Positions 2,452-21,199 of a DNA stretch of 64,000 nt are shown here, piece after piece. The notes below the pieces were generated by a model. It made no database searches, was not told the DNA's origin, and was given only the letters and a program-made list of their open reading frames with translations. The stretch comes from Bacteroidetes bacterium 2013_40CM_41_45 (GTDB taxonomy: Bacteria > Bacteroidota > Bacteroidia > AKYH767-A > 2013-40CM-41-45). The translations under genes were made by a program, and so were the position numbers. Location of the stretch: contig NGFH01000009.1 of assembly GCA_002215675.1 (NCBI GenBank), forward strand, positions 609,501 to 673,500, written 5' to 3'. Position 1 is the stretch's first letter, and every line of letters starts with the position of its first letter.

Positions 2452-4674
2452 ATGCATAGTCATATCAACATATTACTTGTAGAGGATAACCCGGGCGATG
2501 CTTTTCTTATACAGCAAATGCTCCGGGCATCCGATTTCAGCAGCGCTACACTGCTCACAGCTTCTACATTAAAAGAAGCGCTGAAGTACAGTGCCACAGA
2601 TATAGAAATACGGCTCATACTCCTGGACCTCGGCTTACCCGACAGCGATGGAATGGAAAGCGTACGCACTATACGTAAACATTTTCCTGACACTGCGCTC
2701 AATGTACTTACCGGCCTTGATGATAAGCAGACAGCAACCAATGCTCTACGCGAAGGCGTACAGAATTACCTGGTAAAAGGAGAAATTGACAGCGATGAAC
2801 TGGAAGAGGCAATCCGTTATTCCCTGGAAAGGCACAACTTCATTAACAAACTTAAAGGGGCCAATGAGTCCCTAACGCTATCGGAACAGAAATACAAACT
2901 GCTTTTTAAGGACAACCCCATGCCTATGTGGGTTATTGATTACAAAAACAATCTTGCGTTTATTGATGTCAACGAAGCCGCGTTACAACATTATGGATAT
3001 ACCCGTGAAGAATTTCTTTCCATGACATCCATAGACATCAGGCCTGAAGCTGAAAAGGGACGCTACATTCGGCTTCGCAGGGCTGCACAACAGGGCTCAA
3101 ATTATGCAGGCATCTGGAGACATATAAAAAAGGATGGGACCATTATTGACGTGGAAATAAAAACCCATGATATAATTATTGATAACCAGGAAGCACGCCT
3201 TGTTCTTGCCAATGATGTCACAGAAAAATTAAAAGCAGAAGACGCTCTTCGACTTGCTGAAACAAATTACCGCGAACTGTTTGATAAAGCAAACGATGCC
3301 ATTTATGTTCATGAGATGGAAACGGGAAGAGTATTGCAAGTAAATCACAGAGCAACGGAGTTAACAGGTTTTTCAAAAGAAGAACTTCTTAATACGGACC
3401 CGCATGAGTTTATGTCCGGTCATCCCGATTATACTTTCGAGCATGCCATAAATTATATTCAGAAAGCTGCCATGGGAGAACCGCAGCTTTTCGAATGGTT
3501 GGGAAAAAAGAAAGACGGAACGCTCTCCTGGTATGAAGTGAACTTAAAAAGAGCTGCCATAGCCGGGGAAGAAAAAATACTCGCCTTCTTCCATGAAATT
3601 AACGAGCGCAAAAAAGCTGAAGATAAAATAATTAAAAGTGAGGAACAATACAAAGACCTTGTTGAAAACATTACTGACCTTATTTGTACGCACGACCTGA
3701 ATGGGCGGATACTGTCTGCGAATAAAGCAGCGGAAAAAATTGTGGGCTTAAGCTTTGGCCCTGAAAACAATTGGAATATCAAAGATATCCTTTCTCCTGA
3801 TAGAAGAGCTGCCTTCGATGAGTATATTGCTACTATAAAAGAAAAAGGACACGCTGAGGGGCTAATGAAAGTGCAAACCAGCAAAGGTGAAATACGCATT
3901 TGGGAATACCTGAACACATTAAAAACAGACGGAGTTAAGGCCCCGATAATACGCGGTTATGCAAGAGATATTACCGAACGAAAAAAAGCAGAAGAAAAAA
4001 TAAGGGAATCGCATAAGGAGTTGCGGGAGTTAACTGCCCATCTGCAAACTATACGCGAAGAAGAACGGACTCACATTGCGCGTGAAGTGCATGACGTGCT
4101 GGGGCAGCAGATTACCGGGTTGAAAATGGATATGACCTGGCTTAAGAAAAAAATCACAGATAAAGACAAGAGCACAGAAAAACGATTTACCGAGATGCTT
4201 TCTCTTGCCGATGAAATGGTAAAAACCATACGCAAAATTGCAAGCGAGCTGCGCCCGGGAATCCTGGATGACCTCGGCCTTATTCCTGCTCTTGAATGGC
4301 AGAGCAACGAATTTGAAAAACGCACCGGGATAAAATGTCTTTTTACTTCGAACAATACATTGCCGGACATAGCTCAGACAAATGCCACAGGAATTTTTCG
4401 CATCTACCAGGAAACCCTTACCAACGTAGCACGCCATGCAAAAGCAACCAAAGTAGATGCAGCTGTAACTTTTGATGGCGGAGCTATTAAGCTGTCTATT
4501 GCAGATAATGGAAAAGGATTGAACACAGAAGAAATGAAATCAAAAAAAACTTTGGGAATTGTAGGCATGAAAGAACGAGCGGCAATGATGAAGGGCAATC
4601 TTACGGTACAAACACGCACCGAAGGTGGGACGGTTGTGACTTTATTGGTACCTGTTAATAAAACGGAAGCCTAA
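2452..4674 (+). CDS. Hybrid sensor kinase: REC-PAS-PAS-PAS-HisKA_3-HATPase
   Basis: The 740-residue soluble protein has an N-terminal receiver (about 1-125, phosphoacceptor D59), three PAS domains (about 143-265, 270-395 and 398-520) and a NarL-type HisKA_3 dimerisation domain with His547 in REVHDVLGQQ. A HATPase domain follows, with the motifs NVARHA, DNGKGL and GIVGMKERA. No membrane segment is visible. An N-terminal receiver on a kinase suggests that it takes phosphate from, or is tuned by, another kinase such as the one upstream. HisKA_3 kinases usually phosphorylate LuxR/NarL-type regulators, and one is encoded 18 bp downstream. ATG follows the previous stop without a gap. Confidence 0.95.
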   Translation: MHSHINILLVEDNPGDAFLIQQMLRASDFSSATLLTASTLKEALKYSATDIEIRLILLDLGLPDSDGMESVRTIRKHFPDTALNVLTGLDDKQTATNALREGVQNYLVKGEIDSDELEEAIRYSLERHNFINKLKGANESLTLSEQKYKLLFKDNPMPMWVIDYKNNLAFIDVNEAALQHYGYTREEFLSMTSIDIRPEAEKGRYIRLRRAAQQGSNYAGIWRHIKKDGTIIDVEIKTHDIIIDNQEARLVLANDVTEKLKAEDALRLAETNYRELFDKANDAIYVHEMETGRVLQVNHRATELTGFSKEELLNTDPHEFMSGHPDYTFEHAINYIQKAAMGEPQLFEWLGKKKDGTLSWYEVNLKRAAIAGEEKILAFFHEINERKKAEDKIIKSEEQYKDLVENITDLICTHDLNGRILSANKAAEKIVGLSFGPENNWNIKDILSPDRRAAFDEYIATIKEKGHAEGLMKVQTSKGEIRIWEYLNTLKTDGVKAPIIRGYARDITERKKAEEKIRESHKELRELTAHLQTIREEERTHIAREVHDVLGQQITGLKMDMTWLKKKITDKDKSTEKRFTEMLSLADEMVKTIRKIASELRPGILDDLGLIPALEWQSNEFEKRTGIKCLFTSNNTLPDIAQTNATGIFRIYQETLTNVARHAKATKVDAAVTFDGGAIKLSIADNGKGLNTEEMKSKKTLGIVGMKERAAMMKGNLTVQTRTEGGTVVTLLVPVNKTEA

Positions 4675-4692
4675 CTATAAAAACTTATTTGT

Positions 4693-5319
4693 ATGAAAAT
4701 CCTTATTGCAGACGACCATGCTATAGTCCGTAAAGGATTAAAGCAGATTTTGCTCGAAGAATTTTCTTCGGCAGAAATTCTTGAAGTGGAAAACGGAAAC
4801 CAACTGCTCAAAGAAATCCGCAAACAAAAATTCGATGTTGTTATAAGCGACCTCTCCATGCCCGGACTGGGAGGGCTTGATACACTCAAACAACTGAAAG
4901 AAGAATTTCCCAAGCAACCCGTCCTTATTCTAAGCATGCACCCCGAAGACCAGTATGCCATTCGCGTGCTGCGCGCCGGCGCATCCGGTTATCTTAACAA
5001 AGAAACCGCGGGCGATGAATTGGTGAAAGCCGTCCGCCAGATTACAAGCGGAAAGCGGTACATCTCACCTGCGGTGGCCGAAAAACTTGCGGAGAATCTT
5101 GATATTGATTCGAGCAAGCCGCTGCACGAAACACTTTCTGACCGCGAGTTCGAAGTGCTGAAACTTATTGCAGAGGGAAAAACTGTTTCAGACGTTGCCG
5201 AAATTCTTTCCCTGAGTGTCGCCACAATCAGCACGTACCGCACACGCCTTCTCGAAAAGCTCCACTTAAAGAACAATGCGGAATTGACGCGCTACGCGCT
5301 TGATAATAAAATGGTATAA
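4693..5319 (+). CDS. NarL/FixJ-type response regulator with LuxR HTH
   Basis: The protein has 208 residues. The N-terminal receiver (1-120) has D7, D8 and phosphoacceptor D53 (VVISDLSMPG). The C-terminal LuxR-type helix-turn-helix (about 145-205) begins at LSDREFEVLKLIAEGK and includes the VATISTYRTRLLEKL recognition region. It is the only DNA-binding output of this first signalling cluster and is very likely the partner of the HisKA_3 kinase encoded just before it. Candidate targets include its own operon and the alpha-oxoamine synthase gene downstream, but no binding site can be assigned from the sequence alone. Confidence 0.95.
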   Translation: MKILIADDHAIVRKGLKQILLEEFSSAEILEVENGNQLLKEIRKQKFDVVISDLSMPGLGGLDTLKQLKEEFPKQPVLILSMHPEDQYAIRVLRAGASGYLNKETAGDELVKAVRQITSGKRYISPAVAEKLAENLDIDSSKPLHETLSDREFEVLKLIAEGKTVSDVAEILSLSVATISTYRTRLLEKLHLKNNAELTRYALDNKMV

Positions 5320-9618: not shown

Positions 9619-11646
9619 TTATCTTTTTAAAACGCGCCAGGTTCGTTTCTTTTGGTTCTGCGAAACAGAAACAAAATATATCCCCGAAGAAATTTTTGTA
9701 AGAGCATTTATAGAATACTCATACCCTACGTGCTCTATTTTTATATTATCTGCATAAAATAATTTTCCCTCTATATTGGTGAGAGAAATTGCCGCCGGTG
9801 AAATAGTGTTCTCAAAACGTATATTTAATTTTTCACTGAAAGGATTGGGATAAATAAAAATCTCATCAGCGCTTTCTTTAATGTTCACCATCTTAACACC
9901 GATGACTTTTGTGGTTCCGTCATAATCGGTTTGCGAAAGGCGGTAATAGTTATTACCAACAGCAGGGCTCATATCGCAATAGGAATAAGCATTTTTTGTT
10001 GTCCTGGTACCTGCTCCGTTAATCTTTGCAAGCTCGGTAAACTCAAGAGCATCGTTACTTCTTGACAAGGTAAAATAATTGTTATTAACCTCTGATGCTG
10101 TTGCCCACTCAAGCTGCACGGAGTGGCTGAATTCTTTGGCTGAGAAATCAATTAATGTAACAGGTAATACAGAGCTACCGATTGTAATAATGGAACTCAC
10201 AATTTGTTTTCTTCCGCATGCATCCGTAATCACACATTTAAGCACCCCTGTAGTGGGAGAGGCGACAATTGGCGAGGTAAAGTTGGTGGTATCTTTCGCA
10301 GCATTCGCAAAGCTTCCGCCTACGGTGGAAGTCCATGCGAATGTATAAGGCGGGGTTCCTGAATTTACATTCACCAATACCTGCGATGTTTCATTACCGA
10401 TTAACGAAGACGGAATAGTATAATTCAACACAACGACTTGCTTTAAACTTCCTGCCACCAATAAATAATTAAAAAATGCGCGCTGGGCTGCTACTTTTTC
10501 TGCTGTAGTTCCGTTTCCATCTATGTCGTGCCCGGCTTCATACATTACATATCCGTTGTTTGCGTTACCATATGCTCGTCCGTATACCATTAATGCCCCT
10601 TCGTTGGGTGAAGCTCCGTCCGAGGTGGTTACTAATCTTTTTGTTGTGCCTCTCCATGCTCCCGTTGTTTGCGGTATGTACCACTTTTCAGAACCTCCGT
10701 TTGTAGCTCCGTCCATCGTACCCATAAACTGCATTACGGGGTCAGTCGGATAATTATGTGTATACGGTGCAGTAGGATTACCTGCGTGCGTTTGTGTAAC
10801 ACCAGCGCCGCATTTACCACTGCTATAACATTGAAGCCCGTTGGTGGAGAGATAATCTAATTGCTGAAAAGGAGAAGACGTATTGGTAACGCCTTCCATC
10901 ACGCTTACAGCATGACACTCTGACCAGATAGATGACTTTTGAGCCGTTACAAAATTGTAGAGAGGAGAGTGAGTGCTCCATAGGGGGTCTCCATGCGGGT
11001 TTATCCAAATGTCGTGGCAGGAAGTAAGTTGTGTCGGGTCGCCTATATCATAAGAAGTTGCCGGTAGAGCTGCGTTAGTATAATAACCCGTGATAATATT
11101 TTGATTGTTCGACAGGTTATCAATCATAGCCTTTGGAAAATAGGTTAATGTAGCATACACAGGAACCGTAATAGCGCCTGCTGTATAAACTCCCTGCACC
11201 CCCTGGCCTTGCCAGTATGTGATGCGTGTCGTCACGCTAGACGTAATATCTTCAGCGCGAATTATAAATGTGCCGCCTTTATAATCAATTCCATTATACG
11301 TAAAATCCGCACCGTCTTTTACCTTGCTTGAATTAATAACCCATTTTACCGGCACGTTGTAATTATAAATAAGGTCATACAACATACCGTATGGCTTTAG
11401 GCCATTGGCATATGTTTGCGGGGTAATACCCATATTAATAATAAATGAGCCGCTCGATAAGGTCTCATCAGAAGTAGCGTATACCCCTGTGGGCGACATT
11501 AAATTAAAGTACCCGAAAAAGAGAATAAAGGCAACAACTGAAGCTGCGCTATAGATGAATCCTCTTTGACGCATAGCCTTTAGCAATCGCATCTTCAGCG
11601 TCATTCTCTGGCGATAAATAAGGCGAATCCTTGGTCTTTGATACAT
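9619..11646 (-). CDS. T9SS cargo protein with C-terminal type A sorting domain
   Basis: The 675-residue protein starts with an unusually long basic segment (MYQRPRIRLIYRQRM..., eight Arg and two Lys within 28 residues), then a hydrophobic helix (about 30-48). Residues 60-400 form a large extracellular region of unrecognised family with Cys residues (SCHDIWINPHGDP, SECHAVSVMEG) and an acidic HDIDGNGT motif. Residues 410-490 look like an immunoglobulin/PKD-type domain (VNVNSGTPPYTFAWTS). The C-terminus (590-675) is a type IX sorting domain with YPNPF and a final ISSGIYFVSVSQ...RRVLKR-like end. The protein should cross the outer membrane by T9SS. Its activity is unknown. Confidence 0.88.
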   Translation of the reverse strand: MYQRPRIRLIYRQRMTLKMRLLKAMRQRGFIYSAASVVAFILFFGYFNLMSPTGVYATSDETLSSGSFIINMGITPQTYANGLKPYGMLYDLIYNYNVPVKWVINSSKVKDGADFTYNGIDYKGGTFIIRAEDITSSVTTRITYWQGQGVQGVYTAGAITVPVYATLTYFPKAMIDNLSNNQNIITGYYTNAALPATSYDIGDPTQLTSCHDIWINPHGDPLWSTHSPLYNFVTAQKSSIWSECHAVSVMEGVTNTSSPFQQLDYLSTNGLQCYSSGKCGAGVTQTHAGNPTAPYTHNYPTDPVMQFMGTMDGATNGGSEKWYIPQTTGAWRGTTKRLVTTSDGASPNEGALMVYGRAYGNANNGYVMYEAGHDIDGNGTTAEKVAAQRAFFNYLLVAGSLKQVVVLNYTIPSSLIGNETSQVLVNVNSGTPPYTFAWTSTVGGSFANAAKDTTNFTSPIVASPTTGVLKCVITDACGRKQIVSSIITIGSSVLPVTLIDFSAKEFSHSVQLEWATASEVNNNYFTLSRSNDALEFTELAKINGAGTRTTKNAYSYCDMSPAVGNNYYRLSQTDYDGTTKVIGVKMVNIKESADEIFIYPNPFSEKLNIRFENTISPAAISLTNIEGKLFYADNIKIEHVGYEYSINALTKISSGIYFVSVSQNQKKRTWRVLKR

Positions 11647-11986: not shown

Positions 11987-13090
11987 ATGAACCTGATAAT
12001 AATCTTAAAACAAATGAACTCAATGAGAAGACAAATGTACAGGAGCAGCATGCGGCCCAGGATGGTGCTTCGCCCCCGCCTACGTATGAGATTAAAGCGT
12101 AAGTTAATAATAGGCGGATTCGCCCTGCTCCTGAATTCTGCTTTGGTGTTTGCTTATTTCTTTTTTATAAAAACGGATAAATCGAGTGCCAGCCAGATGC
12201 TGGATGGAAGTTCAGGCAATTGGAATGCAGCTTCCACCTGGACAGCAGGCAGAGTTCCTGCAAGTAATGATACGGTCACCATTACGGCAGGTAATACAGT
12301 AACTATACCTACTTCTACAGCGGTGTATACTAACATGAAAATTATTGTATACGGAACGCTTCACATCACCGCCGGAAAAAAACTTTTATTGTGTAACGGA
12401 ATGATTGATGTAATGGCAGGCGGATTTATCGTTGGAGATAATGGAGGAAGCATGGTTGATATATGCGCTGTCACCGCATGGGATGGTGCGATGCCCGGCG
12501 CAGGGCCTATGGAGATTGGCTCCACGGTGCTTCCGGTAACGCTCGCATATTTTAAAGCAGAGAGCGCAAACAACGGAACTATAAATCTATCCTGGCAAAC
12601 TGCCAGCGAGGTTAACTGCGATTATTTTTCCGTAGAACGCTCTATTAACGGCAGCGACTTTGAGAGCATATCTAAAATTAAAGGCGGGGGAAACAGTTCT
12701 ACTGCTTTGCAGTATTCTTATATTGACGACAACCCGCACAGCCCCGTTTCTTATTACCGCCTCAGGCAGGTTGACTTTGACGGAAAATCAGAAACGTTCA
12801 GGATTGTTTCAGTAAATCTAAATCCTGTGCACGAGCTGGTGGTTTATCCCAACCCGGTTTCTACAGGAGAATCAGCAACGATACAGATACCTGCAGAAAA
12901 TGAAAATACATTGCAGGTATCCGTTATGGATGCTCAGGGCAAAAAAATATTTTCACAGCTTATTGAAAAGGAAAACGCATCGGATAATATGATACGTTTT
13001 GTAACTGAAAAATTTCCTGCCACAGGCACATATTTTATTAGTGCTTCGGGGTTAACCAACAAATATCTTAAGAAAATAATTGTGCTGTAA
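11987..13090 (+). CDS. T9SS cargo protein with Arg/Met-rich N-terminus
   Basis: The 367-residue protein opens with a basic segment (about 44 residues) holding at least ten Arg and six Met, followed by one hydrophobic helix (IIGGFALLLNSALVFAYFFF). Residues 70-160 have the SGNWNAASTWTAGRVPASNDTV pattern typical of beta-helical G8/adhesin-like repeats in Bacteroidota. The C-terminal part has a fibronectin-like module (LSWQTASEVNCDYFSVERS) and a type A sorting domain (VVYPNPVSTGE, then TGTYFISASG). Several in-frame ATGs (11987, 12014, 12023) make the exact start uncertain. It shares layout with the divergent neighbour and is probably a surface protein. Confidence 0.85.
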   Translation: MNLIIILKQMNSMRRQMYRSSMRPRMVLRPRLRMRLKRKLIIGGFALLLNSALVFAYFFFIKTDKSSASQMLDGSSGNWNAASTWTAGRVPASNDTVTITAGNTVTIPTSTAVYTNMKIIVYGTLHITAGKKLLLCNGMIDVMAGGFIVGDNGGSMVDICAVTAWDGAMPGAGPMEIGSTVLPVTLAYFKAESANNGTINLSWQTASEVNCDYFSVERSINGSDFESISKIKGGGNSSTALQYSYIDDNPHSPVSYYRLRQVDFDGKSETFRIVSVNLNPVHELVVYPNPVSTGESATIQIPAENENTLQVSVMDAQGKKIFSQLIEKENASDNMIRFVTEKFPATGTYFISASGLTNKYLKKIIVL

Positions 13091-14115: not shown

Positions 14116-15402
14116 ATGGAACAAAAAAAACACCTGGAGCTGGTTCTTGATGAAATAAGACATAAATCCGACCGTCTGATGGACTATTTTCTCATCAGTT
14201 ATTTTATTGTGGGTTTACTGCTTGCCTTCTTTTACAGTACATGGCTTGTAGCTATTGGCGTGGGCGGATTGTCACTGATAGCATATTATTCCTCAAGACA
14301 TCTTTTACCTGAATCAAATCTTTATCAATATATAGTGAGTGTAGTATTTGGAATTTTTATGGCACAGTTTATTTACCAGATGCACGGACTGTTCGAGATG
14401 CACTTTATTGCTTTCATCAGCAGCGCCATGCTTATCGCTTATCAAAACTGGAAGCTCCAGATTCCTATCACATTGTTTGTAGTTATGCATCATGCCGCGT
14501 TTGGTTATCTCCAGTTTATCGGTTACGACAAAATATATTTTACCCAGCTCGATTACATGAGCCTGCAAACCTTTATCATACACGCCTTGCTTGCAGCAGT
14601 CGTATTTTTCATTTGCGGACTGTGGGGATACCGGTTTAGGAAAAACACGATTAGCCATATAGAACAATCATTTGAAATAGGACGTCTGCAAATAGCAGAA
14701 GCGCAGAAAGAAGAACTGCTGAAAGCCAATACTGAATTAGATAAATTCGTCTACAGCGTTTCACATGACCTGCGTGCCCCCCTCACCTCTATGCTCGGTA
14801 TAGTTGAAATCTCTGAGTCCATTACAGAGCAAAATATTATCCGCGAGCAATTAGGCATGGTAAAAGGAAACATCCGCAAATTAGACGGATTTATCCTCGA
14901 CATTCTTGCCTACTCCCGAAATTCAAGGCTGGAAGTGAAGAAAGAAGAAATACATTTTAATGAATTGCTCAACGATATAACGAATAATCTTAAATTCATT
15001 GGCAGCACCAATCGTACGGTTGATATCAGGTGCAGCGTGAGCAACGGAGTACTTTTTAAATCAGACAAAAGCCGCCTGAACGTAATTCTGAATAATTTAA
15101 TTTCAAACTCTATCCGATACCAGGATCCCGGTGCGGAAACCCCTTATGTGGACATCCGGGTAAATGTTTCTGCACATGCAGCCGAAATAGTAGTTAAAGA
15201 TAACGGCATCGGCATCAGCAAGGAACATCAGCCCAAAATTTTTGAAATGTTTTATCGCGTGTCAGAAAATTCCGTTGGCTCCGGGTTGGGATTATTTATC
15301 GTTAAGGAAAGCATTGAAAAGCTTAAAGGAAGCATTGCACTGCAATCCGAATTAGGGCAGGGAACCATATTTAATATTCACATTCCAAATAATTTAAACT
15401 AA
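14116..15402 (+). CDS. Multi-pass membrane sensor histidine kinase
   Basis: The 428-residue protein has about six membrane helices in residues 22-180, then a coiled linker and a HisKA/HATPase kinase core. The sensor includes HGLFEMHFIAFISSAMLIAYQNWK and FVVMHHAAFGYLQ, a pattern also found in membrane modules of some chemotaxis receptors. The phosphoacceptor is His217 in SVSHDLRAPLTS. DNGIGISKEHQPKIFEMFYR and GSGLGLFIVKE are the ATP-binding boxes. The core is nearly the same as in the kinase at 17537, so the two are paralogues. The receiver gene 11 bp downstream is the likely partner. Confidence 0.93.
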   Translation: MEQKKHLELVLDEIRHKSDRLMDYFLISYFIVGLLLAFFYSTWLVAIGVGGLSLIAYYSSRHLLPESNLYQYIVSVVFGIFMAQFIYQMHGLFEMHFIAFISSAMLIAYQNWKLQIPITLFVVMHHAAFGYLQFIGYDKIYFTQLDYMSLQTFIIHALLAAVVFFICGLWGYRFRKNTISHIEQSFEIGRLQIAEAQKEELLKANTELDKFVYSVSHDLRAPLTSMLGIVEISESITEQNIIREQLGMVKGNIRKLDGFILDILAYSRNSRLEVKKEEIHFNELLNDITNNLKFIGSTNRTVDIRCSVSNGVLFKSDKSRLNVILNNLISNSIRYQDPGAETPYVDIRVNVSAHAAEIVVKDNGIGISKEHQPKIFEMFYRVSENSVGSGLGLFIVKESIEKLKGSIALQSELGQGTIFNIHIPNNLN

Positions 15403-15413
15403 TCAAAGAAGAT

Positions 15414-15827
15414 ATGAGCAAGCTAAACGGAAAATACATTTATAAAAAGGTAATGGTCATTGACGACAGCGAAGCAGACCGCTATGTTGCATCGTATAAT
15501 ATCAAAAGACATTACTTTGCCGAGGAAGTAATTTTAAAAGATTCGGCAAAAAGTGCGTTGGAATACCTGAGGTCATCTGCCGAAATGCCCGGCAACCTGC
15601 CACATTATATTTTTCTCGATATCCGCATGCCCGATATTGACGGCTTTGCTTTTCTCGATGAATACGAAAAGCTTCCGGAAACTGTAAAAAAAACCTGCAT
15701 CATTATGATGCTTTCTTCATCACTGAATCCTGAAGACCATCAAAGAGCTGAGCAAAATAAATTCGTCACCCGGTTCCTTAATAAACCGCTCGATAAAGAG
15801 AAATTGGAAATCTTAACAATACAATAG
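15414..15827 (+). CDS. Single-domain response regulator
   Basis: The 137-residue lone receiver has VMVIDDSEADRY (acidic pair), phosphoacceptor Asp in YIFLDIRMPDIDGF near residue 66 and the conserved Lys in RFLNKPLDKE near 125. It starts 11 bp after the kinase stop and is closely similar to the receiver at 19307, which also follows a kinase of the same type. This suggests duplication of a kinase-receiver unit. No output domain is present, so it works through protein contact or as a phosphorelay step. Confidence 0.92.
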   Translation: MSKLNGKYIYKKVMVIDDSEADRYVASYNIKRHYFAEEVILKDSAKSALEYLRSSAEMPGNLPHYIFLDIRMPDIDGFAFLDEYEKLPETVKKTCIIMMLSSSLNPEDHQRAEQNKFVTRFLNKPLDKEKLEILTIQ

Positions 15828-15853
15828 CAATCACATAATATTTCCAGTGGTCT

Positions 15854-15882
15854 AAATGTTTCCCATCCTTAAACATTTTTTT
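15854..15882 (+). terminator. AT-rich intrinsic terminator
   Basis: AAATGTTT (15854-15861) and AAACATTT (15871-15878) form a perfect 8-bp stem with a 9-nt loop, followed by a T-run, 27 bp past the receiver stop. The stem has few GC pairs, so efficiency is uncertain. Confidence 0.55.
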
Positions 15883-16167
15883 AACTTTTTATCATTAATT
15901 CTTTCTAAAAAATACTGGGGTCTTTCCTAAATCGCATTAGGGTTTCCTTGGTTTTTTCTCCGCTAGTTTTTGCAAAACAATTACACTCTGAGATTCTTTT
16001 TTGAAATGCGTGCCTGACCTTTAAGAGGACTTTTTTCCTTTGCACCTCTCCCATCCGCTCTGAGCCCTTAAACAGCCGCTATTACAGGGGTTTTCAACCT
16101 TTTGTCTTTTAAAATGACTTCAAGGCTATCTTTTTTGAACTGCAATAAACCCAACATATTCAGGGAC

Positions 16168-16226
16168 TTGTAGTACTAATCACTACAAATACTTCTCGTC
16201 TGCGATGACGTTGTAATCCGCGTCAT
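16168..16226. promoter_or_regulatory. Two consecutive inverted repeats upstream of the pseudo-receiver
   Basis: TTGTAGT-N7-ACTACAA (16168-16188) is a perfect 7-bp inverted repeat. ATGACG-N10-CGTCAT (16205-16226) follows 16 bp later. Both lie 80-140 bp before the start at 16307. Their sizes suit dimeric regulators of the LuxR/NarL or other HTH type. No direct evidence of which protein binds. Confidence 0.4.
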
Positions 16227-16306
16227 TACTATTGTTCAAGGGGGCGCATCTTTGTTTGTTTGCACTATCAAATCGATAGAACAAAAACAAATCAACACGC
16301 AAAAAA

Positions 16307-16693
16307 ATGAACAAGAAACTCAACGTATTACTGGCTGATAACACTCCCACTCATACGCATGGCATACGCAGCCTTCTGAACCATTACAACGACTATGTAG
16401 CCGTTAAACATGTTACAGACGGCTGGGATATAGTTACCCAGACTCAAACCTCTCCCGACTTAGTAGTGCTCTACGATAACGTACCCACTCCAAATGGTAT
16501 AGAGCTACTGGTGGCAATAAAAATGAAGTATCCAAAAGCAAAAGTTATCCTCTTTACCCGCGACCCGGAACCCTATTACCGCAACATGTGCGAACTGCTG
16601 GGCGCTGATTATTACTACCATAGGTCACACTCCATATCAACGCTTCCCGAATCTATAAAAGCAATGATTCTGGGGTACCAGATAGCGGCTTAA
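16307..16693 (+). CDS. Degenerate (pseudo-) receiver domain protein
   Basis: The 128-residue protein aligns along its whole length with the receiver at 17155 (LLVAIKMKYPKAKVILFTRDPEPYYRNMCELLGADYYY against the equivalent stretch there). The catalytic residues are changed. The acidic pair is ADN. The position of the phosphoacceptor Asp is Tyr (VVLYDNVPTPNG, with the only nearby Asp shifted by one). The conserved Lys is Arg (HRSHS for DKTTE). Normal phosphorylation is therefore unlikely. Such pseudo-receivers usually act by binding. A strong hairpin terminator follows, so it is transcribed alone from its own promoter. Confidence 0.85.
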   Translation: MNKKLNVLLADNTPTHTHGIRSLLNHYNDYVAVKHVTDGWDIVTQTQTSPDLVVLYDNVPTPNGIELLVAIKMKYPKAKVILFTRDPEPYYRNMCELLGADYYYHRSHSISTLPESIKAMILGYQIAA

Positions 16694-16721: not shown

Positions 16722-16776
16722 CCTCTCCTGCCCTTATAAAACAGAACTTAACAATAAGGGCACGGAGAGGTTTCTT
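16722..16776 (+). terminator. Strong hairpin terminator after pseudo-receiver
   Basis: CCTCTCC (16722-16728) pairs with GGAGAGG (16764-16770), and GCCCTTAT (16730-16737) with ATAAGGGC (16754-16761). This gives a 15-bp stem with a small internal bulge, followed by TTTCTT. It lies 29 bp after the stop at 16693. Confidence 0.7.
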
Positions 16777-16925: not shown

Positions 16926-17120
16926 ATGAGCAGCAGACCAGACCTGATTAAAGCAATTCTTCGCCTGGACCCAAAACGTTCAATGCAGGAACTTGAGGTA
17001 TTTACCGACACAGACCTTATTCTGCTCAAGGCAAAGGTGCTGTATGAATACGAGCGGCACAACATTAATCTTTTCCGGAAAGGATATTCTTTTCACAAAA
17101 GGGAAAAGAAAAAAAATTAA
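16926..17120 (+). CDS. Small basic hypothetical protein (64 aa)
   Basis: ATG 16926 opens a 64-residue frame (MSSRPDLIKAILRLDPKR...) predicted helical in the centre (MQELEVFTDTDLILLKAKVLYEYER) and strongly basic at the C-terminus (HKREKKKN). It stands between the pseudo-receiver terminator and the receiver at 17155 (34-bp gap), on the same strand and probably in the same transcript as the receiver-kinase-receiver genes. I do not recognise a family. Its helical, basic nature would fit a small adaptor, but that is a guess. It may also be spurious. Confidence 0.5.
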   Translation: MSSRPDLIKAILRLDPKRSMQELEVFTDTDLILLKAKVLYEYERHNINLFRKGYSFHKREKKKN

Positions 17121-17154: not shown

Positions 17155-17556
17155 ATGATTTTGTTACCATTAATAACCGGAAAATTGAAAGTGCTTGTCG
17201 TTGACGACTCTCTTATCGTCAGCAACCGGCTCCGGAATTTATTATCAGAGCTTGAGTACGTTCAGTTTTCGGGGCATGCAGAAAATTACAATGATGCCGT
17301 GCTGTTCACCGATGCCTTGAAGCCGCATGTGATTTTGCTTGATGTAAACCTGGCAGTGAAAAGCGGCATTGATGTTCTGAAACATGTAAAACTATATTAT
17401 CCTTCCATTAAGATAGTTATGCTTACCAATCACTCCGATGCGTATTACAGGAAGCTATGCAGCGATTTGGGAGCAGATTATTTTCTTGACAAGACAACAG
17501 AATTTGAATCTCTAACCGACCTCCTCGAAAAAATATATGAAAATACCAAGTGGTAA
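17155..17556 (+). CDS. Single-domain response regulator
   Basis: The 133-residue lone receiver has intact sites: VLVVDDSLIVSNR (acidic pair), phosphoacceptor Asp in VILLDVNLAVKSG, Lys in FLDKTTEFE. It overlaps the start of the kinase gene at 17537 by 20 bp, so the two are translationally coupled and probably partners. It is the intact counterpart of the degenerate receiver at 16307, with which it shares the YYRKLC/YYRNMC and GADYF/GADYY stretches. No output domain. Confidence 0.92.
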   Translation: MILLPLITGKLKVLVVDDSLIVSNRLRNLLSELEYVQFSGHAENYNDAVLFTDALKPHVILLDVNLAVKSGIDVLKHVKLYYPSIKIVMLTNHSDAYYRKLCSDLGADYFLDKTTEFESLTDLLEKIYENTKW

Positions 17557-19294
17557 AAAGTTTTACGCTGCAGCCATGCCCTTAATTTTTATTGCAGTTG
17601 CTATGCCCGCTAAACTATTGCAAGTGCCCGGTGAAGCGTTGCGTTACAGGGATATCTTCATGGTATCGGCCATAATTTCCTTAATGGTATACCTGTTGGT
17701 TGAAAAGAGCAGGTACAGGAAAAATCATTTAGCGTTCGTTTCAAAAACCGGGAAAGAACAGGCTATTGGTATAAAGTTTTCATCAAACGCTGCAAAGTTT
17801 TTTCACAGTAAAGCAAAACACAAACAAGAGCTCATGGATACTGAAGAAAAGTATCGCCTTATTATCCAAAACTCTACCGATGTTATAACACTTATAGATA
17901 GCCAGGGAATCATTAAATACCAGTCGCCTGCGCTGGAAAAAATAACCGGTTTTGCTCCGTATGAACTGAGCGGTAAAAGCGTTATTGATTTTATTCATCC
18001 CGAAGATTCTGTCCGAGTATCGCAACAATTGTTAAACGGAATTTCGAGGGACGGAAAAACGAGCCCGTTGATTTCACACCGCATCCTTCACAAAAACGGT
18101 TCATGGGTTTGCATAGAATCTCACGGCACAAGTCACCTTGCCATGCCGGGAATCAATGGTATTATCATCAACTCGCGCGATGTTACCGAACGGGAAATTC
18201 AGAGAAAGCAGCTTGAAGATGCCAATGCACAGCTTAAAATATTATTCGAAAATGTTCACGAAGCTTTTTTCTCTGTCGATTTGGTTAACAACAAAATATT
18301 GCAGATTTCTCCTGCACATGGAAATATTTATGGCCGGGGGAAAAAAGAATTTTACGACAACATAAATCTTTGGAGCGAAGTCATCCATCCCGAAGACAAA
18401 TATCTTGTTCACGGAATGGATAAAAATATTGAGTCGGGCATTCCTTTTGCAACAGAGTACCGCATCATTAAAAAAGACGGGACCATCCGGTGGATAGAAA
18501 ACAAAATAACTCCAACGCTTAACAATGAAAAACGTCCGATACGAATTGATGGTGTGATTTCAGACATCACTGAACGCAAGGAAGCAGATGAGCAGATTAA
18601 AGAACAATTCCGCGCGCTGCAAAAAACCAACTACGAGCTGGACCGTTTTGTTTACAGTGTATCGCATGACCTGCGCGCTCCCCTCACCTCCATTATGGGA
18701 ATCATCAACCTTGCAGAACTTGAACACCAGACGGAACAGCAGAAGCGATACCTGGAAATGATCCAGTTCAGCATTAACCGCCTCGACTCATTTATTAAAC
18801 ATATTTTATCTTATTCAAAAAATGCCAAGTCAGAAATTACTTCCGAACCGATTGACTTCATCGAACTTCTTGCAGAAATCAGGGCAAACCTGAAATTTGT
18901 TAAGGGAACGGAGCGCATGAAAATCAAAGCACACATCAACCAGGCTATTCCCTTCCGCTCCGACCGCATGAGGTTGGCCATTATTTTTAATAATCTTTTT
19001 TCAAATGCAATTAAATACCAGGACATAAATAAAAATGATTCTTACATCTCTCTTGATATTGTTACTACGGAAAACGAGGCCCGAATTACTGTTGAAGATA
19101 ACGGAATCGGCATTGATAAAAAATATCTTAATAAAATTTTCAAAATGTTCTACCGCGTTTCGAGCATTGCTCCGGGGGCCGGGCTCGGATTATACATTGT
19201 AAAAGAAGCCACCCATAAGCTGGGTGGAGATATTAACGCAGATTCCGTTGTCGGTGAAAAAACTGTTTTCAAAATAACCATTCCGAATAAATAA
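17537..19294 (+). CDS. Membrane PAS-PAS sensor histidine kinase
   Basis: The 585-residue protein has two N-terminal membrane helices (about 8-55), two PAS domains (about 98-220 and 232-360, each ended by DVTERE/DITERKEA PAC motifs), HisKA with His377 in SVSHDLRAPLTSIMG, and a HATPase domain with DNGIGIDKKYLNKIFKMFYR and GAGLGLYIVKE. All boxes are intact. The kinase core is highly similar to that at 14116. Receivers flank it on both sides (17155 overlapping, 19307 twelve bp downstream), so one kinase may feed two receivers. Confidence 0.94.
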   Translation: MKIPSGKKFYAAAMPLIFIAVAMPAKLLQVPGEALRYRDIFMVSAIISLMVYLLVEKSRYRKNHLAFVSKTGKEQAIGIKFSSNAAKFFHSKAKHKQELMDTEEKYRLIIQNSTDVITLIDSQGIIKYQSPALEKITGFAPYELSGKSVIDFIHPEDSVRVSQQLLNGISRDGKTSPLISHRILHKNGSWVCIESHGTSHLAMPGINGIIINSRDVTEREIQRKQLEDANAQLKILFENVHEAFFSVDLVNNKILQISPAHGNIYGRGKKEFYDNINLWSEVIHPEDKYLVHGMDKNIESGIPFATEYRIIKKDGTIRWIENKITPTLNNEKRPIRIDGVISDITERKEADEQIKEQFRALQKTNYELDRFVYSVSHDLRAPLTSIMGIINLAELEHQTEQQKRYLEMIQFSINRLDSFIKHILSYSKNAKSEITSEPIDFIELLAEIRANLKFVKGTERMKIKAHINQAIPFRSDRMRLAIIFNNLFSNAIKYQDINKNDSYISLDIVTTENEARITVEDNGIGIDKKYLNKIFKMFYRVSSIAPGAGLGLYIVKEATHKLGGDINADSVVGEKTVFKITIPNK

Positions 19295-19306
19295 AGATTG
19301 CACAAC

Positions 19307-19765
19307 ATGAGTGAGCCCTTGCACTTTGAGCACAATATTTTTAGCAGCATACTGCTTGTTGACGATAATGAGATTGATAATTTCGTTTCGAGCAGCATTA
19401 TCAATAAGCTTGGAATCGCAAAACAAATTATCAGCAAAAATTCTGCTGAAGATGCCCTGGATTATCTTACCGCATGCTTGAAAAATAGTTCATCTCTGCC
19501 AGAAATTATTTTACTCGATATCCGCATGCCGTCTATGGACGGCTTCGATTTCCTTCGCGAATTTGAAAAGTTTCCACCCTCCGTGCATTCGGAGTGCAAC
19601 ATTTTCATTTTGTCATCTTCCATAGATTCAAGAGATATAGAGCGGGCAAAACAAAATCGGCATGTGTTGAGCTTTATAACTAAGCCCCTTACTTTCAATA
19701 ATATTGAAATTGCATTGTCAGTGTTACAAGACCTAAAGCCAAAATCATATTCAAGAACTGCCTAA
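19307..19765 (+). CDS. Single-domain response regulator
   Basis: The start is taken as ATG 19307 (152 residues), 12 bp after the kinase stop; an upstream TTG at 19298 is less likely. Receiver features are ILLVDDNEIDNFV, phosphoacceptor Asp in IILLDIRMPSMDGFDF and Lys in FITKPLTF. It is similar to the receiver at 15414, and both follow a kinase of the SVSHDLRAPLTS type, pointing to duplicated kinase-receiver pairs. No output domain. Confidence 0.91.
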   Translation: MSEPLHFEHNIFSSILLVDDNEIDNFVSSSIINKLGIAKQIISKNSAEDALDYLTACLKNSSSLPEIILLDIRMPSMDGFDFLREFEKFPPSVHSECNIFILSSSIDSRDIERAKQNRHVLSFITKPLTFNNIEIALSVLQDLKPKSYSRTA

Positions 19766-19831
19766 TAAAAAAATCAGTGAGAAATAATAATACTTAAAAC
19801 CTCTTATAAAATTATTCACTGAATAATATTT

Positions 19832-21199
19832 ATGACACGGACGAGTACTATAAACGGAAGAAAAAACTTTACGCTGAGATATTCCCTGTACGGAATGTTA
19901 TTTGGGTTCGTATTTCCGGTACTGGGCTTACTTGTTCACTTCAACGAGCACAACCTGGTTTTTTCGGCTAAAGAGATATTCAGGCAACTTATTTCCGAAC
20001 CATTATTAATCATCATCTGCTTTGCTCCGCCTGTTCTTATGGCTGCAGGTTATATTATTGGCATAGCTGCGGAAAGAATTTACAGGTATGCAAAAGAGGA
20101 AACCACAGCCAGTTTTCAGCGAATGATTGAATATGCCGGTGATATTTTTTATACTTCCGATGTGTATGGATATTTTAAGTATATTAATTCGCGTCTGCAA
20201 AAAGAACTTGGATATTCACCAGAGGAACTCATCGGGAAACATTATACCGAAATTGTTGCGCCGGCATGGAAAGAAAAAGTAGTTGCATTTTACACGAAGC
20301 AGTTCAAAGACAAAAGCCCTGAATCAATTTTTGAATTCCAGGTTCTTTGCAAAAACGGTCGGCCTTGTTGGATAGAACAGACGGTTACATTGCGGTTCCA
20401 GGATGAAAACATTACAGGATACAATGGCATAGTGAGAGACATTGAGGAGAGAAAAGAACAGGAAGTGCTCATCAGTGAACTTTACAGTAATCTTGAAAAT
20501 AAAGTTGCCGAAGTAGAAAAAGTAAACAAAGAGCTGGATGCATTCGCCTACACTGTATCGCATGACTTGCGCGCTCCTCTCAGGCATCAGATTATTGCTG
20601 CCGAAATGCTTAGAACAGACTACATAAACCTGCTGCCGGCAGATGCTTCTGAGCTTTGCGAGACGATTTCCAAGAGTGCAAAAAAAATGACCACTCTTAT
20701 CGAAGACCTGCTTCGTTTTTCAAAATTAGGTAAGCAGCCACTTCATCTTTCAACAAATAATATGAATCAAACGGTGGAGATAATTCTGCGAGAGCTTTCA
20801 GCAACATATGACAGCACTCGTGTAAGTATTAAAGTTGATGAAAAATTACCCGATGCTTTCAGCGATGCTTCTATGACCAGGCAGGTGTGGGCTAATTTTA
20901 TTTCCAATGCAATTAAATATTCCTCGAAAAAAGAAAACCCGGTAATAGAAATTGGCGGCCGCGTTAACGACAAAGAGACCATATATTTTGTAAAAGATAA
21001 CGGTGCTGGTTTTGACATGAAACATTATGATAAGCTCTTTGCCTCTTTTAGCAGGTTGCATGCCTCGCATGAGTTTAGCGGAAATGGCTTAGGGTTAAAC
21101 ATTGTAAAGCGAATTATAGAAAAGCATAAGGGCCGCGTTTGGGCAGAAGGAAAACTAAACGAAGGAGCTACTTTTTATTTTTCATTGCCGCTTAAATAA
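19832..21199 (+). CDS. Membrane PAS sensor histidine kinase
   Basis: The 455-residue protein has two membrane helices (about 17-38 and 55-80), one PAS domain (about 92-215, ending IVRDIEERKEQ), HisKA with His244 in TVSHDLRAPLRHQ and a HATPase domain with DNGAGFDMKHYDKLFASFSR and GNGLGLNIVKRIIEKHKG. The kinase core is of the phytochrome/Rcp-linked kind like the one at the left edge, not like its neighbours at 14116 and 17537. It starts 66 bp after the receiver gene and may be read from the same transcript. No receiver follows. Confidence 0.93.
   Translation: MTRTSTINGRKNFTLRYSLYGMLFGFVFPVLGLLVHFNEHNLVFSAKEIFRQLISEPLLIIICFAPPVLMAAGYIIGIAAERIYRYAKEETTASFQRMIEYAGDIFYTSDVYGYFKYINSRLQKELGYSPEELIGKHYTEIVAPAWKEKVVAFYTKQFKDKSPESIFEFQVLCKNGRPCWIEQTVTLRFQDENITGYNGIVRDIEERKEQEVLISELYSNLENKVAEVEKVNKELDAFAYTVSHDLRAPLRHQIIAAEMLRTDYINLLPADASELCETISKSAKKMTTLIEDLLRFSKLGKQPLHLSTNNMNQTVEIILRELSATYDSTRVSIKVDEKLPDAFSDASMTRQVWANFISNAIKYSSKKENPVIEIGGRVNDKETIYFVKDNGAGFDMKHYDKLFASFSRLHASHEFSGNGLGLNIVKRIIEKHKGRVWAEGKLNEGATFYFSLPLK

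Follow-up and report, generated by a model that had tools for sequence, protein, structure and literature searches.

The window, as the whole 64-kb stretch of DNA analysed is called here, contains a two-component cluster in which a short gene at 16307-16693 sits among intact kinases and receivers, with three histidine kinases close by. Genes and their products are referred to by their first position. The features of this locus are as follows.

14116..15402, + strand: histidine kinase, candidate interaction partner; its kinase core is 47% identical to that of 17537
15414..15827, + strand: intact stand-alone receiver, upstream of the pseudo-receiver (profile match, catalytic set present)
15828..16306, + strand: upstream intergenic region of 479 bases, GC 0.365, presumed to hold 16307's own promoter
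16307..16693, + strand: stand-alone pseudo-receiver of 128 aa (Pfam, alignments, AlphaFold2; D11, N12, Y56, T84, Y103, R106)
16722..16770, + strand: hairpin, possible terminator (folding z -4.27; the terminator scan gave no call)
17155..17556, + strand: intact stand-alone receiver, paralogue of 16307 from the same family (alignments; orthologues at 40-50% in related genera)
17537..19294, + strand: PAS-HisKA histidine kinase, candidate interaction partner, overlapping the 17155 gene (profile match)
19298..19765, + strand: intact stand-alone receiver, 43% identical to 15414 (profile match, alignment, catalytic set)
19832..21199, + strand: PAS-HisKA histidine kinase with syntenic orthologues at 44% in relatives (profile match)

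The neighbouring receivers 15414, 17155 and 19298 have the full catalytic set, in agreement with the initial annotation, which had placed 16307 between working receivers. The kinase-receiver pairs 14116-15827 and 17537-19765 resemble each other (47% identity for the kinase cores and 43% for the receivers), which suggests that the pair was duplicated locally. In relatives (L039-L044), the gene order is PAS kinase, NarL-type regulator and stand-alone receiver, and some add a second receiver and kinase. In the window, other genes separate the part with the kinase and NarL genes (2452-5319) from the part with the receivers (17155-21199), at a distance of about 12 kb. The 64-aa open reading frame at 16926-17120, between 16307 and 17155, had no Pfam or NCBIfam match. 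Its sole relative among 61 genomes, at 35%, is a paralogue from this genome (L180), and the two appear to form a small family specific to the lineage. The proteins encoded at 9619-11646 and 11987-13090 have Arg-rich N termini and C-terminal regions that, by eye, bring to mind the sorting domains of type IX secretion.

The 16307 gene was initially annotated as having a long upstream region of its own, and the gap is indeed 479 bases long. No Bacteroidota-type promoter pattern was found within the 64-kb window. Downstream of the gene, what had been described as a 15-bp terminator hairpin proved to be a real hairpin, with a 16-pair stem interrupted by one bulge, a 16-nt loop and a following UUUCUU (-31 kcal/mol for the stretch). 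Its designation as a terminator held up less well, since the terminator scan did not call the structure at about 16722-16770, which lacks a proper U tract. A transcription unit of its own for 16307 would be in keeping with both the upstream region and the hairpin.

The frame at 16307-16693 is unbroken over 128 codons, with a single ATG start at its head. The encoded protein matched the Pfam profile Response_reg (PF00072) over residues 7-115 with 40.5 bits (curated cut-off 30.2, E 3.5e-10). The AlphaFold2 model, for which the input alignment held 28 sequences, had the (beta-alpha)5 fold with a pLDDT of 85 and a pTM of 0.81, and its top structural matches in the PDB were ordinary response-regulator receivers (Z 17-19). 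A sulfotransferase identity was considered and rejected; the Pfam side matches were weak and overlapped the receiver match, and the modelled fold is that of a receiver. The nearest protein in the genome is the intact receiver 17155, with which 16307 aligned end to end, as previously claimed (28% identity, E 1e-14).

The five catalytic positions were assigned by alignment to D11, N12, Y56, T84 and R106. Three of these are altered, namely the phosphoacceptor, the Lys and the second residue of the acidic pair. The alignments place Tyr56, D11-N12 and Arg106 in the phospho-Asp, acidic-pair and Lys columns, which bears out the Tyr, DN and Arg reported in the initial annotation. The set needed for a working receiver (two acidic residues, the phospho-Asp, a Thr or Ser, and the Lys) is incomplete in this protein, and with Tyr56 at the phosphoacceptor position it fits the definition of an aspartate-less receiver in PMC4395418, namely the absence of an Asp there. 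The pair of Y-T coupling, Thr84 and Tyr103, is retained. Because the phosphoacceptor Asp, the Mg2+-binding Asp and the Lys are gone, His-to-Asp phosphotransfer to 16307 is very unlikely (PMC12632262, PMC4395418). The gene product is almost certainly a pseudo-receiver.

Both 16307 and 17155 belong to a stand-alone receiver family with the signature YR..C..(L/A)GADYFxDKS, which occurs in many phyla and is well represented in Bacteroidota. Of this signature, 16307 has Y91, R92, C95, G99, A100, D101, Y102 and S107, with DK changed to HR. A family HMM built without 16307 and without 17155 scored 17155 highest in the genome (147.2 bits) and 16307 second (86.1 bits), with every other receiver of the genome at 78 bits or below, and the profile of the NarL-type receivers of the genome gave 43.9 bits for 16307. 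In the large tree, 16307 fell inside the family with a support of 97/98, on the longest of all end branches (2.88; median 0.65). In the AU test, the arrangement of 16307 and 17155 as sisters had a P value of 0.05, and a grouping of 16307 with the NarL-type outgroups was not rejected (P = 0.6). From its sequence, 16307 appears to be a divergent, lineage-specific member of the single-domain receiver family of 17155, the exact branching of which was not settled by the tree tests.

Among 77 other family members, the phospho-Asp is present in 75, with Asn in one and Glu in one, and the Lys and the Asp preceding it are present in all 77. The changed residues N12, Y56, D57, R85, H105 and R106 of 16307 sit at positions that are 90 to 100% conserved in these members or, at D+1, always hydrophobic. 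A pattern scan of 84,980 species genomes with the family alignment returned 237 relatives, and none of the best 80 has Tyr at the site. When the 58 receiver domains listed by the genome search were aligned, 16307 was the sole one with a residue other than Asp in the phosphoacceptor column, and one other domain was without the Lys. The family members at L121:7084-7425 and L110:5125-5337 have Glu and Asn, respectively, in place of the phospho-Asp and retain the Lys.

An Asp residue, Asp57, directly follows Tyr56 and might have taken over as the phosphoacceptor. This is most improbable. Asp57 is not simply a displaced phosphoacceptor, because Pro60 (D+4) and Gly64 (D+8) set the register and all 77 relatives have a hydrophobic residue at D+1; the Lys and the second acidic residue have gone as well. 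It is also highly unlikely that a bacterial tyrosine kinase regulates 16307 by phosphorylating Tyr56 in place of His-Asp transfer. Phosphorylation of Ser, Thr or Tyr at this position of aspartate-less receivers was raised in PMC4395418, and the genome encodes two BY-kinase-type (eps_fam) proteins above the family cut-off, but nothing ties these kinases to the 16307 locus, and the AlphaFold2 model has Tyr56 at the end of strand beta3.

No orthologue of 16307 was found in 11 genomes of the taxonomic family, in 42 genomes of the order, where a 17155 query recovered the gene in the window and no copy elsewhere, or in 395 genomes of the class, where the closest match had at most 32% identity. The class-wide matches whose site was read have Asp or Glu there. 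Nor did an orthologue emerge from 84,980 species genomes in two pattern scans, which rely on short conserved peptides that a divergent orthologue could escape, or from a single-sequence search of plasmids and viral contigs. 16307 is known from just one genome. Orthologues of 17155, at 40 to 50% identity, occur in four related genera (five genomes) and stand in conserved order with a NarL-type regulator whose best match in the window is 4693. In two of these genomes, the conserved order also takes in another stand-alone receiver and a kinase that matches 19832. A sixth genome has a truncated match at greater distance. Since all nearer homologues are canonical, the loss of the site in 16307 is lineage-specific, and the long branch indicates that it is not recent.

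The segments of 16307 were scored alongside those of family members treated alike. The four active-site loops had z values of -2.2, -4.3, -2.8 and -7.5. Segments beta1, beta3, alpha3, beta4 and alpha4 fell within the range of the family; alpha1 and alpha2 stood at the 3rd percentile, and beta5 scored below the range. Hydrophobic residues occupy 33 of the 35 core columns of the family. When the 17155 gene was evolved neutrally in simulation, none of 3000 runs reached this value at 40% or at 30% identity; at 50% identity 0.5% did, and 0.03% did so without a stop codon. The simulation had no indels, which would make an unbroken frame still rarer. On a looser measure, 75% of the positions that are hydrophobic in 17155 remain so in 16307, which is the family median and gives weaker support against decay; the measure relied on was the family core columns and not all hydrophobic positions of 17155. 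The codon use of 16307 is coding-like and close to that of 17155, and only 0.35% of random synonymous versions scored as high.

These results bear on whether 16307 is a dispensable duplicate drifting toward a pseudogene. Many conserved residues are gone from the protein, which has the longest end branch and occurs in a single genome, as drift would predict. On the other hand, the frame is unbroken, the core is retained far above the neutral expectation, the losses cluster in the active-site loops rather than being spread, and codon use is that of a coding gene, making drift quite unlikely. A decaying copy would not be expected to show change gathered in the active-site loops beside a core kept at 33 of 35 positions and family-like helices alpha3 and alpha4. 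The earlier statement that this is no decaying pseudogene was upheld by the frame, unbroken despite very large divergence, by the core and by the clustering of change in the active-site loops. The accompanying remark that the rest of the protein is well kept applies to the fold and the core but not to the protein as a whole, at only about 28% identity. Together, the comparisons show a phosphotransfer site that was dismantled and a predicted fold and core that were maintained.

Alpha1 is the usual kinase-docking face of receivers. A protein that docks on histidine kinases through this face could act as a decoy, blocking phosphotransfer to the intact receivers. The three kinases near 16307 would fit such a role, and binding competitors of this kind have been proposed (PMC12632262). 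However, alpha1 of 16307 scores at the 3rd percentile among family members, with His at the conserved hydrophobic position 16 and Gly in place of the common Arg19, and the decoy role is unlikely. A role at a partner or effector face is favoured over it because alpha1 has drifted and alpha3 and alpha4 have not. In a further alternative, the remodelled pocket, the gamma-turn region and alpha2 would bind a small molecule that replaces phosphate and Mg2+. The most altered parts of 16307 include the active-site loops and alpha2, and alpha2, the gamma turn and alpha3 are often used by ligand-binding pseudo-receivers (PMC12632262), but no ligand motif was recognised and relaxed constraint accounts for the same pattern, so that ligand sensing is rather improbable.

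The preferred reading, with a probability of roughly 40%, is that 16307 is a phosphorylation-independent partner or competitor of its intact paralogue or of the partners or targets of that paralogue. The local histidine kinases would be unable to phosphorylate 16307, which would work as a binding module independent of phosphorylation. Its preserved alpha3-beta4-alpha4(-beta5) side would engage 17155 or the partners of 17155, with 16307 acting as a hetero-partner or competitor, and its activity would be set by the amount made from its own transcription unit. The initial annotation had put forward a decoy or dimer partner for the intact paralogue, and 16307 may act as one. Alpha3 and alpha4 may be preserved for folding alone, and a common partner for 16307 and 17155 would not be guaranteed at an overall identity of only 28%. 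In more general terms, 16307 might be an output-less pseudo-enzyme that arose in a multi-kinase cluster and regulates a functional receiver or kinase module by serving as its dedicated protein partner, although this is somewhat doubtful.

16307 is best filed under the already known pseudo-receivers, or aspartate-less receivers, which are Pfam receivers that lack conserved active-site residues (PMC4395418, PMC12632262). Surveys put pseudo-receivers at about 4 to 13% of annotated receivers (PMC12632262). Many of them, like 16307, keep DD1 and the Thr and Tyr of Y-T coupling. What sets 16307 apart is that the Lys is changed too, the output domain is absent and the Asp position is occupied by Tyr; Phe or Tyr at this position is rare, with 23 sequences in one survey (PMC4395418). 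The FrzS receiver of Myxococcus xanthus is, like 16307, a non-orphan pseudo-receiver without the Asp, and its alpha3-beta4-alpha4 region is the binding surface (PMC12632262). The corresponding surface of 16307 is preserved at the sequence level only, and FrzS has Ala at the site and further parts beyond the receiver, whereas 16307 is a receiver alone. CmrT of Clostridioides difficile and WhiI of Streptomyces, the latter a hetero-partner of BldM (PMC12632262), resemble 16307 as atypical regulators that occur among, or pair with, other regulators, but both are transcription factors and 16307 has no DNA-binding domain. The intact YR..C..GADYFxDKS receivers, such as 17155, share architecture, signature and family with 16307 and, unlike it, keep the D, D, D, T and K residues.

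16307 is a single-genome case of a kind that is already known. How pseudo-receivers are switched on and off in bacteria is an open question (PMC12632262), and those characterised are mostly orphans. As a receiver-only protein beside intact paralogues and kinases, 16307 offers a small, testable case for asking whether a live phosphorelay is regulated by a dead receiver.
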